Shown here in pieces: positions 25,965-28,912 of a stretch of DNA of 54,251 nt. Below the pieces are notes generated by a model. That model searched no databases. It was given only the letters and a program-made list of their open reading frames with translations, and was not told the DNA's origin. The position numbers and the translations under genes were made by a program. The stretch spans positions 1 through 54,251 of the forward strand of contig JANQQS010000144.1 of the NCBI GenBank assembly GCA_028284955.1, given 5' to 3'. This stretch comes from Myxococcota bacterium. GTDB taxonomy: Bacteria; Myxococcota_A; Polyangia; Polyangiales; Houyiibacteriaceae. Position 1 is the first letter of the stretch; the number at the start of each line of letters is the position of its first letter.

Positions 25965-27227
25965 ATGTCCGATACCGACGAAGAGCCTCAGATCATTACT
26001 TATCGGGCGCGCCGGTATGACATTCGTCGATGGATGAGCCGGCATCCGGGCGGGGACATCATCCGTCGCTACGTTGGATGGGATGTGACGTGTTTGATGC
26101 ACATGATGCACGACATGCGGCATGCAGGGATTCAGCGAATGCTCAAGCGACTCGATTGTGGTGCCGGTGAGCCCACGCGAGCGTTCGATAGGGACTATCT
26201 CGAACTCGAAGAGCTATTTGTTGAGCGCGGCTGGTTTCGACCGAGCCCGTGGTGGTACGCCTACAAAATCGCGTGGCTGGTGGTGTTTTTGGTGGGGGCG
26301 TATCTCGTCCCCGGCCCGTGGCTGACAGGATTGCTGTTTGGGCTGTTCGTACAGCAGTCGGCCTTCGTGGCCCACGATGTGTGTCATGGCGCGGTATTTC
26401 CCAAGCGATGGCGGCGACGCATGTCGTGGCTATTCGGTAGCGTCTGCTTTGGGTTGAGCCACGAAAAATGGGTGCGCGAGCACAACATTCATCACGCACT
26501 GATCAGCCGGCCGATGGCCGATCCGCAGATGAACACCATGCCGCATCTGATGTATTCGCGGCGAGAAGGGGATTTGTTTGAGCAAACGAATCGCAAACTG
26601 ACGGATGCGGACAAAGCGAAGATCGGGTTTCAACACATTTGGCTTTTACCCGTGCTTTTTCTCTACGGCCGCATCAACGTCGCGCGCGGCGATATTCGAT
26701 TAGCCTGGAACGCGCGCGATTGGCATCACCTGTCGGCGTACGCGATTCATTACGCGCTCTGGCTTTCGTTCTTAGTTCAAGAAGGCATTCGTGGAGGCCT
26801 AGTTCACGCACTCTTGTTTGCCGGGCCGTTCGTACTGACCACGCTGGTTGTTTCCAGCATCATTCATCTGCAGCTGATTCTGTCGCACGCGTATTCGCCT
26901 CGATTGCTCGAACACGAGCAGCACGAACTCGGCATGGCAGTGCAAATCACCTCGAATCAAAACGTCACCACGACGCTGCTCGACGACTGGCTCCACGGCG
27001 GGCTGCAACACCATATCGAGCATCACCTCTTTCCGCGATTGCCTCGCCACAGCTTGCCCAAAGCCCGACCTTACGTCCGAGAGCTCTGCCGCAAACACGG
27101 CTTGGAATACAAAACCGACCCCTTCCTGGTCTGCGTGGCCGCGCTCCTCTCCTCGCTCAAGCGCAACGGCGCCGACTACCGACGAGAACTTCTGGCACGC
27201 TACCGAAAGCCTGCCAAGTCATCGTAG
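25965..27227 (+). CDS. cytochrome-b5-fused fatty acid desaturase
   Basis: A 420-residue membrane desaturase. The N-terminus (about 10-65) is a short cytochrome-b5-like domain with the HPGGD heme motif (27-31) and a second His cluster (MHMMHDMRH, 45-53). Then come the three histidine boxes of membrane di-iron desaturases: HDVCH (137-141), HNIHH (173-177) and HIEHH (350-354), with four hydrophobic segments. Front-end (delta-5/6) desaturases usually have Gln at the first place of box 3; here it is His. It probably introduces double bases-style unsaturation near the carboxyl end of membrane acyl chains or sphingolipids, that is, makes polyunsaturated lipids. The gene stands alone, flanked on both sides by hairpin repeat clusters. 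Confidence 0.9.
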   Translation: MSDTDEEPQIITYRARRYDIRRWMSRHPGGDIIRRYVGWDVTCLMHMMHDMRHAGIQRMLKRLDCGAGEPTRAFDRDYLELEELFVERGWFRPSPWWYAYKIAWLVVFLVGAYLVPGPWLTGLLFGLFVQQSAFVAHDVCHGAVFPKRWRRRMSWLFGSVCFGLSHEKWVREHNIHHALISRPMADPQMNTMPHLMYSRREGDLFEQTNRKLTDADKAKIGFQHIWLLPVLFLYGRINVARGDIRLAWNARDWHHLSAYAIHYALWLSFLVQEGIRGGLVHALLFAGPFVLTTLVVSSIIHLQLILSHAYSPRLLEHEQHELGMAVQITSNQNVTTTLLDDWLHGGLQHHIEHHLFPRLPRHSLPKARPYVRELCRKHGLEYKTDPFLVCVAALLSSLKRNGADYRRELLARYRKPAKSS

Positions 27228-27274
27228 TTGACCTTTTTTTTCGGAGGGTCTGGCCGCAGCCGCTGTTTTTTTTG
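27228..27274 (+). other. spacer with T-runs before the repeat cluster
   Basis: Right after the desaturase stop there are two T8 runs (27233-27241 and 27266-27273) each followed by GGAGGGTCTGGCCGCAG, a degenerate H2. The T-runs are not preceded by a stem, so a standard intrinsic terminator is not supported. Confidence 0.4.
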
Positions 27275-27321
27275 GAGGGTCTGGCCGCAGCCCCTCCCCC
27301 CGCGGAATACGATTCCGCGGG
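27275..27321 (-). repeat. double-hairpin repeat copy R6
   Basis: Minus orientation. H2 27275-27296 (GAGGGTCTG and CAGCCCCTC around GCCG, one mismatch). H1 27299-27321 with arms CCCGCGGAAT and ATTCCGCGGG around ACG, perfect. The same H1 arms recur in the next copy. Confidence 0.85.
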
Positions 27322-27345
27322 TCCCCCCACCCGGCTGTGTTTTTG

Positions 27346-27580
27346 GAGGGTCTGACCGCAGCCCCTCCCCCCGCGGAATACGATTCCGCGGGGCCCCCCA
27401 CCCAACGCCGCTTCGCGCTGCGCGGGGGCCCCTACGCCCCCTTGCTCTCTTCGTGCAGCGCTCGTGGTGAACTGCTTTCTCTGTGCTGTTTGCGGTGAAC
27501 TGTAGTCGGGCGAGCTATTCCGACTGTGTCGTTGGAGGGTGTGACTGTGTCCAAGTCCGGCCGCTTCGCGTCCGCCCCAC
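27346..27580 (-). repeat. double-hairpin repeat copy R7 with long tail (copy A)
   Basis: H2 at 27346-27367, H1 at 27369-27393 with arms CCCCGCGGAAT and ATTCCGCGGGG around ACG (perfect, 11 bases). A tail of about 190 bases follows (CGCTTCGCGCTGCGCG, CTTGCTCTCTTCGTGC, GTGAACTGT and others) to CCGCCCCAC at 27580. Positions 27356-27580 match 27743-27968 nearly base for base except in the H1 arms. Confidence 0.88.
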
Positions 27581-27661
27581 TGCTTCGCGGCGGGGGCCCC
27601 AGCAGCACACTACTCGCGCAACCAGGTCACGTGCATCGTGGCGGGGGAGCTGTGTTGTTTG
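27581..27661 (+). repeat. repeat core linking copies A and R8
   Basis: Core words shared with the composite elements: TGCTTCGCGGCGGGGGCCCC, AGCAG, a GCGCAACCAGGTCACGTG lead-in and GGCGGGGGAGCTGTGTTG. The lead-in here runs into an inverted H2-H1 instead of H1-H2, showing recombination of modules. Confidence 0.6.
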
Positions 27662-28092
27662 GAGGGTTTGAAGCAAACCCTCCCCCGCGCGGGTACGACC
27701 CGCTCGGGTCCCCCACCCGACTCCTTGCCTAGGAGGGGCTGGCCGCAGCCCCTCCCCCACGCGGGTACAACCCGCGTGGGGCCCCCTCCCAACGTCGCTT
27801 CGCGCTGCGCGGGGGGCCCTACGCCCCCTTGCTCTCTTCGTGCGGCGTTCGTGGTGAAGTGCTTTCTCTGTGCTGTTTGCGGTGAACTGTCGTCGGGCGA
27901 GCTACTCCAACTGTGTCGTTGGAGGGTGTGACTGTGTCCTAAGTCCGGCCGCTTCGCGTCCGCCCCACCGCGAAGCGGCGGGGCCCCGGCAGATCGACCT
28001 CAACGCAACCCGGTCACGTGGTTCCTGGCGGGGGAGTTTGGGTGAATGGCTGGGATCGTATCCCAGCCAGAGGGTCTGGGTGCCAGACCCTC
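27662..28092. repeat. composite element with a nested copy (R8, R9, R10)
   Basis: Left end minus orientation: H2 27662-27682 (loop AAG, perfect) and H1 27687-27705 (one mismatch). Right end plus orientation: H1 28047-28069 with arms TGGCTGGGAT and ATCCCAGCCA around CGT (perfect) and H2 28070-28092 (perfect, loop GTG). The core includes the third hairpin H3 (GCCCCACCGC, loop GAA, GCGGCGGGGC, 27962-27984, one mismatch) and CACGTG near 28015. Between GACTCC (27719) and GGCCGC (27947) a second unit, copy R9, interrupts the core. The element ends eight bases before the tonB stop. Confidence 0.82.
27732..27968 (-). repeat. double-hairpin repeat copy R9 with long tail (copy B)
   Basis: H2 27732-27755 (GGAGGGGCTG, loop GCCG, CAGCCCCTCC, perfect) and H1 27755-27781 with arms CCCCACGCGGGT and ACCCGCGTGGGG around ACA (perfect, 12 bases). 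The tail is the same as in copy A, with about a dozen differences by eye. Confidence 0.88.
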
Positions 28093-28099
28093 AAATTAA

Positions 28100-28912
28100 C
28101 TAGTCCCGCACGCGGAAGGTGCAGCGGTAGGGGACGATGGTGGCTACGGGGCGGCCGGTGCGGCTGCGGGGAGGGCTCCAGCGCTGTCCTTGCAGGGTGC
28201 GCACACACGCGTCGCCGAAGCCTTGTCCGCGTACGCTTTCCGAGGCAACGCGCAGGTTGGACACGCTGCCGTCCGCGTTGATGCGCAGGCGAACTACGGC
28301 GATTCCTTCAATGCCTTGCTGGCGGGCGCGGGGCGGGTAGTTGCGTTCGAGACGCTGGGCCATCGAGCTCGGAGGTTTGGGTTTGCGCGCGAGGCTGCTG
28401 AGCGGCGCGACCGATGTACCGCGACCGCCTGAGCCGGTTCCTCCCGGAGCGGTGATTTTTCCAGTGGGTCGCCGGCCGGGGTTCGAGATCGGTCCTTTTC
28501 GATCGATGCCGCTTGATTGCTGCACGTTCCACGATGAACCGGAGCCTTCGTTGGTGAGTACGACGTTGTCGAAGGCTACCGGAGGGGGTTCAGGAGCTTC
28601 TTCCGGGGCAGGCTTTTCCGCCGCCGGAGCAGGCTCTGGAGGGAGCGAATCTGCCTTTGGTGGCTCAGGGGGGGCGGGCTCGGGCTCCTCTTCGATTTCC
28701 TCGACCTCTTCCTCGACCGGCTCCTCTTCGATCGGCGGAGGCTCTTCGGCGGATGGCTCGAGCAGCTCCATATCGACCGTCGCGATTTCGGGCGCGCTGA
28801 GGGTTGCGCGCGCGGGGAGCAGCGCGGTCAGCGCGACGTGCAACCCTATCGCCAGCACCAGGGCGATGACGAACGTTCGGGGATCTTCGGTCGCTGCGGG
28901 TGAAGGGGTCAC
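28100..28912 (-). CDS. tonB: TonB family energy-transducing protein
   Basis: A 270-residue protein with the TonB layout: a short cytoplasmic N-terminus, one membrane helix (FVIALVLAIGLHVALTALL, about 14-32, including the conserved His after the start of the helix), a long Pro/Glu-rich periplasmic spacer (about 50-120, EEEPVEEEVEEIEEE), and a C-terminal TonB domain (about 185-268) with YPPRARQQGIEGIAVVRLRI. TonB carries proton-motive energy from ExbB-ExbD to outer membrane receptors. The start is a GTG at 28912. It is the last gene of exbB-exbD-tonB. No receptor gene is adjacent, so a TolA-like or gliding-related use is also possible. Confidence 0.88.
   Translation of the reverse strand: MTPSPAATEDPRTFVIALVLAIGLHVALTALLPARATLSAPEIATVDMELLEPSAEEPPPIEEEPVEEEVEEIEEEPEPAPPEPPKADSLPPEPAPAAEKPAPEEAPEPPPVAFDNVVLTNEGSGSSWNVQQSSGIDRKGPISNPGRRPTGKITAPGGTGSGGRGTSVAPLSSLARKPKPPSSMAQRLERNYPPRARQQGIEGIAVVRLRINADGSVSNLRVASESVRGQGFGDACVRTLQGQRWSPPRSRTGRPVATIVPYRCTFRVRD

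Follow-up and report, generated by a model that had tools for sequence, protein, structure and literature searches.

The two near-identical copies A and B are probably tandem units of a dispersed REP/BIME-like repeat family at gene ends, whose central palindrome, H1, is exchanged between copies by short-tract gene conversion. This reading rests on comparison between loci within one genome, the 6.07-Mb, 223-contig draft of a Myxococcota bacterium whose contig 115 is the source of the stretch analysed here (the window, 54,251 nucleotides). Across this genome, H1 was shown to differ blockwise between classes, to be conserved within a class and to be reassorted independently of the preceding hairpin (H0) and of the tail that follows.

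The array between the desaturase and TonB_C genes

Copies A and B lie in an 870-bp gap between convergent desaturase and TonB_C genes. The array fills this gap. From left to right, an H0 fragment and an H0-H1 doublet precede unit A, and a second such doublet separates it from unit B, which has an inverted type-2 end:

25965..27227, + strand: flanking gene for a fatty acid desaturase that has a cytochrome b5 domain, its end marking the left border of the array
27243..27262, + strand: H0-only fragment GGAGGGTCTGGCCGCAGCCG, about 15 nt past the desaturase stop codon, recognised by sequence and repeat match
27274..27321, + strand: tail-less H0-H1 doublet (stub), H1 class GGAAT, its H1 identical to that of copy A
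27345..27368, + strand: H0 hairpin of copy A, GGAGGGTCTG-ACCG-CAGCCCCTCC, with a single T/C mismatch
27369..27393, + strand: H1 palindrome of copy A, CCCCGCGGAAT-ACG-ATTCCGCGGGG, class GGAAT
27394..27648, + strand: long tail of copy A, with H2 region CCGCTTCGCGCTGCGCGGGGGCCCCTACGCCCCC, spacer, H3 CCCCACTGCTTCGCGGCGGGG and H4 region, without a type-2 end
27661..27708, + strand: H0(TTTG)-H1 doublet, H1 GCGCGGGT-ACG-ACCCGCTC, of the same H1 class as copy B
27732..27755, + strand: H0 hairpin of copy B, GGAGGGGCTG-GCCG-CAGCCCCTCC
27755..27781, + strand: H1 palindrome of copy B, CCCCACGCGGGT-ACA-ACCCGCGTGGGG, class GCGGGT
27782..28036, + strand: long tail of copy B, with H2, H3 CCCCACCGCGAAGCGGCGGGG and H4, the H3 loop reverse-complemented relative to A
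28047..28069, - strand: type-2 H1 TGGCTGGGAT-ACG-ATCCCAGCCA, the inverted right end of unit B
28070..28092, - strand: type-2 H0 GAGGGTCTGG-CAC-CCAGACCCTC, separated by 7 nt from the TonB_C stop codon
28100..28912, - strand: TonB C-terminal domain protein (flanking convergent gene), its end marking the right border of the array

The first-pass annotation had placed two 225-base copies at 27356-27580 and 27743-27968, with about a dozen differences outside H1. Both were present there, and in an alignment of about 230 bases outside H1 they differed by about 15 substitutions and by 2 indels of one base each. The full units proved longer, with H0 beginning at 27345 in A and 27732 in B and the match reaching about 27600 and about 27987. 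With the H1 loops as anchor, 12 of 16 arm positions differ between A and B (0.75), against 0.115 in the tails (about 88% identical), and this tail pair is within the ten closest of 527. Such a contrast of divergent arms and similar tails cannot be chance. The H3 loop reads TTC in A (27577-27595) and GAA in B (27965-27983).

A repeat family at gene ends

Genome-wide, the H0 hairpin matched about 210 times, whereas its control matched once, and H1 cores numbered about 450 (244 GGGTACRACCC, 103 GGATACRATCC and 101 GGAATNCGATTCC), with 0-3 matches to the reversed control patterns. The catalogue comprised 142 type-1 and 152 type-2 candidates from 768 kb fetched around matches, a sample element-enriched by design. 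A unit has the order H0-H1-H2-H3-H4, is often ended by an inverted type-2 end, and spans 260-350 bp with 5-7 hairpins. There were 32 inverted H1 pairs at a spacing of 130-149 bp and further ones at 170-219, and tail-less H0-H1 doublets stood directly upstream of full units in 15 tandem cases, A and B among them. The loops of H2 and H3 are highly variable family-wide; the H1 loop keeps a single orientation and almost invariably reads ACG or ACA, rarely GCG. Many contig ends of the draft fall within or near repeats (for example in C8, C37, C71, C103, C112, C121, C163, C171 and C196), so the true number of copies is probably higher.

Gene positions were taken from a simple hexamer gene caller, and no H1 cluster fell inside a called gene. 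An element was present in 33 of 98 convergent gaps, 27 of 282 codirectional gaps and 5 of 94 divergent gaps (p 5e-10). In 145 of the 157 stop-side copies H0 faces the stop codon, and the H1 loop lies mostly 40-60 nt beyond it. The T-rich lead of type-1 H0 contains TGA or TAG, and type-2 H0 frequently overlaps the stop codon itself (TGA|GGG). The repeat may thus supply the stop codon of the neighbouring gene, because type-2 H0 stems overlap or abut it (28070-28102 and other loci), a habit also described for REP ends, which are able to provide a stop codon (PMC3733652). As in intrinsic terminators, GC-rich hairpins follow directly after genes. However, the T-rich tract of the family precedes H0 instead of trailing a hairpin, and a scan for a stem followed by a T tract gave 2 hits against 1.7 expected, neither on H0 or H1, so the terminator reading was rejected. 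The Rfam scan gave no match at gathering score under both thresholds (best chance match E 0.33), and the tRNA and tmRNA scan gave no match. By analogy with REPs, the hairpins would likely act at the 3' end of the mRNA, on its stability or on ribosome release, or serve as a DNA site for a protein.

The scaffold GGGGCTG..CAGCCCC-TCCCCC-(14-32 nt)-GGGGCCCCC was recovered in 8 of the 184 genomes of the order, in three families, with zero control matches. The stretch between the clamps varies by genus and forms a hairpin in each (ATCGCGGC-AAA-GCCGCGAT, ACGGGGC-GTAAA-GCCCCGT, CACGCGA-GTGAA-TCGCGTG). These relatives have different yet paired arms, which means that over long times, too, the arms change under a preserved structure. 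Cross-genome pairing of arms at a fixed offset gave 3.76 of 7 for own arms against 2.68, a weak test with arms of differing length. The long-tail core GCTGCGCGGGGGCCCCTACGCCCCCTTGC is identical or nearly so, without the H0-H1 part, in G035, a genome in one contig of 10.3 Mb from a different family of this order (L102, L111, L117).

Ends of an insertion sequence (IS) adjoin H1 at several loci:

L229-L236 (contigs C71, C24, C26, C25, C50, C47, C143, C142): IS end TGTCAAACCGGGACATGGG... at one fixed point in the H1 3' arm, in 8 of 8 copies, on GGAAT and GGGT arms alike
L237, L238 (contigs C213, C170, and also C130, C129, C3): related end ATGAACCGGGCACATAGG..., probably the other IS terminus, adjoining an apparent leftover H1/clamp half in the five contigs read

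These junctions suggest IS insertion with a 6-7 bp target duplication, and the H1 palindrome looks like the target. The readable IS fragment resembles integrase-core transposases (45% identity). Since the IS inserts in H1 only, at least one enzyme is suggested to recognise this palindrome.

Arm classes and the exchange of H1

Type-1 H1 falls into two classes, GGAAT and GGGT, which split 85 to 54 at pairs 2, 3 and 5 with zero intermediates among 139 copies. Stepwise single changes, which the first-pass annotation had named as evidence against replacement of whole arms, do occur within each class (CGCGGAAT/ATTCCGCG, CACGGAAT/ATTCCGCG, CACGGAAT/ATTCCGTG), and none connects the two classes. Within a class, distances are 0.05-0.09 for arms against 0.26-0.33 for tails. 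The two halves of the tail correlate with each other (r about 0.6, p 0.0005), whereas H1 and tail correlate at r -0.13 to 0.20, the link being absent in LONG and S2 units and weak in S1 (r 0.20, p 0.005). The linkage phi was 0.93 for H0-tail, 0.64 for H0-H1 and 0.67 for H1-tail. The proposal that arms were replaced together was thus borne out, with no intermediates between classes, an H1 class unlinked to tail ancestry, and an H1 independent of flanks that are linked to each other.

H0 and the tail are linked more tightly to each other than either is to H1, which indicates block-wise swapping of H1 over no more than about 60 bp, an upper bound read off the sequences from the last distinguishing H0 base to the first distinguishing tail base. 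Among the haplotypes of 121 copies, 17 had H1 alone swapped (a double exchange) and 4 were single-exchange. On the S2 tail tree, 11 H1 class changes were counted for 11 minority copies and 1 change for H0, counts that are upper estimates because tail trees are short and weakly resolved. A further tail-tree signal, from C220 copies 99 bp apart, was set aside owing to the overlap of their tails. Copy B is itself an H1-only swap (H0 GCTG, H1 GCGGGT, long tail), and its upstream neighbour doublet has the same H1 class. Doublet and unit shared the H1 class in 12 of the 15 tandem cases, against 7 expected (p 0.01). Assembly misjoins were rejected as the source of the mosaics, as they should weaken the linkage of H0 and tail no less than that of H1 and would yield single-exchange rather than double-exchange haplotypes. 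Both H1 classes could have been present in the two old subfamilies, TTTG/S2 and GCTG/LONG, ever since these arose.

Considering these results, we have proposed a model for the family. A unit would open with H0 a few bases past a stop codon, followed by the clamped H1 and the H2-H4 tail, and an inverted type-2 H1-H0 end would often serve the convergent gene. H1 would be exchanged by short-tract gene conversion from dispersed or tandem donors, over no more than about 60 bp, a step deduced from the mosaics. Its probable seeds are G/C runs that every copy has, CCCTCCCCC ahead of H1 and GGGGCCCCC behind it. Within classes, arms would change by point mutation, with most pairs, though not the pair 7/8 mismatch, maintained by selection. 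Short-tract conversion would account for the linkage pattern, the homogeneity of tandem doublets and the persistence of mismatches.

The annotation had further described H1 as perfectly paired, which is true of A and B but not general. Stems are fully paired in 42 of 139 type-1 and 38 of 125 type-2 copies, a minority of which A and B are merely two examples. In the other 97 type-1 and 87 type-2 stems a mismatch is present, as a rule at pair 7 or pair 8; at pair 7, A.C predominates in type 1 and T.C in type 2, each copied to about 50 loci. Watson-Crick pairing is above shuffles at all informative pairs, by a wide margin at most variable ones, and is raised yet incomplete at pair 7 (and at pair 8 in type 1). 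Either strand also folds better than its shuffled versions (z -4.3 and -4.0). The mismatch types have no G-U bias on either strand, so that selection at the level of RNA and of DNA are both possible. E. coli REPs also retain a stem mismatch, which is required by their transposase (PMC8266576).

This excess of pairing, the stepwise states within classes and the different paired arms of other genera would all be expected if a structured RNA or single-stranded DNA hairpin had evolved by compensatory change alone, each substitution followed by its partner under selection for pairing, without exchange. We consider this unlikely, as type-1 units have no GGAAT-GGGT intermediates, the same class arms stand on tails that have diverged by 30%, H1 is unlinked from tail and H0, and drift is unable to yield one multi-base arm repeatedly. 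It is similarly improbable that the H0-H1 doublet is a mobile or duplicating module, new doublets landing upstream of a tail and old ones being deleted between direct H0 repeats. The 15 tandem cases, including A and B, fit such a module, yet H0 should then accompany H1, and its linkage is stronger with the tail (0.93) than with H1 (0.64); the module would explain a part of the swaps only.

A dedicated recombination system seems quite unlikely, in which, for example, a nuclease or transposase would cut the H1 hairpin and repair from another copy would follow, making H1, genome-wide, an address that can be exchanged inside a fixed scaffold at gene ends. The G/C runs flanking H1 in all copies supply homology for short-tract conversion, which makes a palindrome-specific machine unnecessary. 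The annotation had offered hairpin-templated repair among the processes that could rewrite the palindrome as a unit. Such repair, or template switching, would copy one arm from the other and so change the palindrome in perfectly paired form. It agrees with the perfect stems of A and B and with paired double changes (GTGCGGGT/ACCCGCAC versus CCGCGGGT/ACCCGCGG) on 93% identical tails, but it is very improbable and already largely refuted, because about 70% of stems retain a mid-stem mismatch that repair would erase and that was instead inherited at dozens of loci, and because it would not give unrelated loci the same new arm sequence.

Relation to REP-like and other repeats

REP, BIME and REPIN elements of E. 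coli, Pseudomonas and Stenotrophomonas are short imperfect extragenic palindromes that occur in hundreds of copies downstream of coding regions, between convergent or codirectional genes, often at most 15 nt from the stop codon or overlapping it, and form mosaics with inverted partners (PMC3733652, PMC3116915, PMC8266576). The present family resembles them in being made of high-copy extragenic palindromes (more than 200 H0 and about 450 H1 cores, against 0-3 in controls) located downstream of genes near stops in convergent and codirectional gaps, in its inverted partners in composite arrays, and in conserved stem mismatches as in E. coli. REPs are also IS targets (PMC1525189), and gene conversion of REPs had already been proposed, as indicated by the title of Higgins 1988 (cited in PMC12306157 and PMC3116915).

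The family differs in its 260-350 bp chain of 5-7 hairpins and in an H1 with a fixed loop and swappable arm classes. No GTAG/CGTC tag was found at the hairpin foot, where the leads before H0 are T-rich and end in G or T and where CCCC precedes H1. No RAYT (Y1 HuH transposase) was found beside the repeats; the sole PF01797 match in the draft genome is surrounded by 3.3 kb without an H1 unit or such a hairpin. We therefore did not assign the family to REP/BIME, as the tag and a neighbouring RAYT are lacking. RAYT was also rejected as the mobiliser, the lone Y1_Tnp-like gene being distant from the repeats; a mobiliser of another kind is conceivable, as is a gene that the draft lacks.

ERIC, BOX and Correia (NEMIS) elements are intergenic repeats of 100-300 bp with several paired stems and a MITE-like architecture. 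Compared by description, they share with the present family an intergenic, multi-stem form that keeps its pairing. No sequence relation to it is known, and a position abutting the stop codon together with block exchange of an inner palindrome is outside their usual description.

As far as we know, REP-type repeats have long been suspected of gene conversion, and a clean signature is rare; the signature of exchange found here is unusually clear for REP-like repeats. The linked flanks around a swapped palindrome would provide a natural assay of short-tract exchange (at most 60 bp) at hundreds of loci. Our literature search found no description of REP-like repeats in a Polyangiales-like lineage. 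The family would add to this lineage a REP-like class in which the loop is fixed, stem mismatches are tolerated and all IS copies lie in H1.
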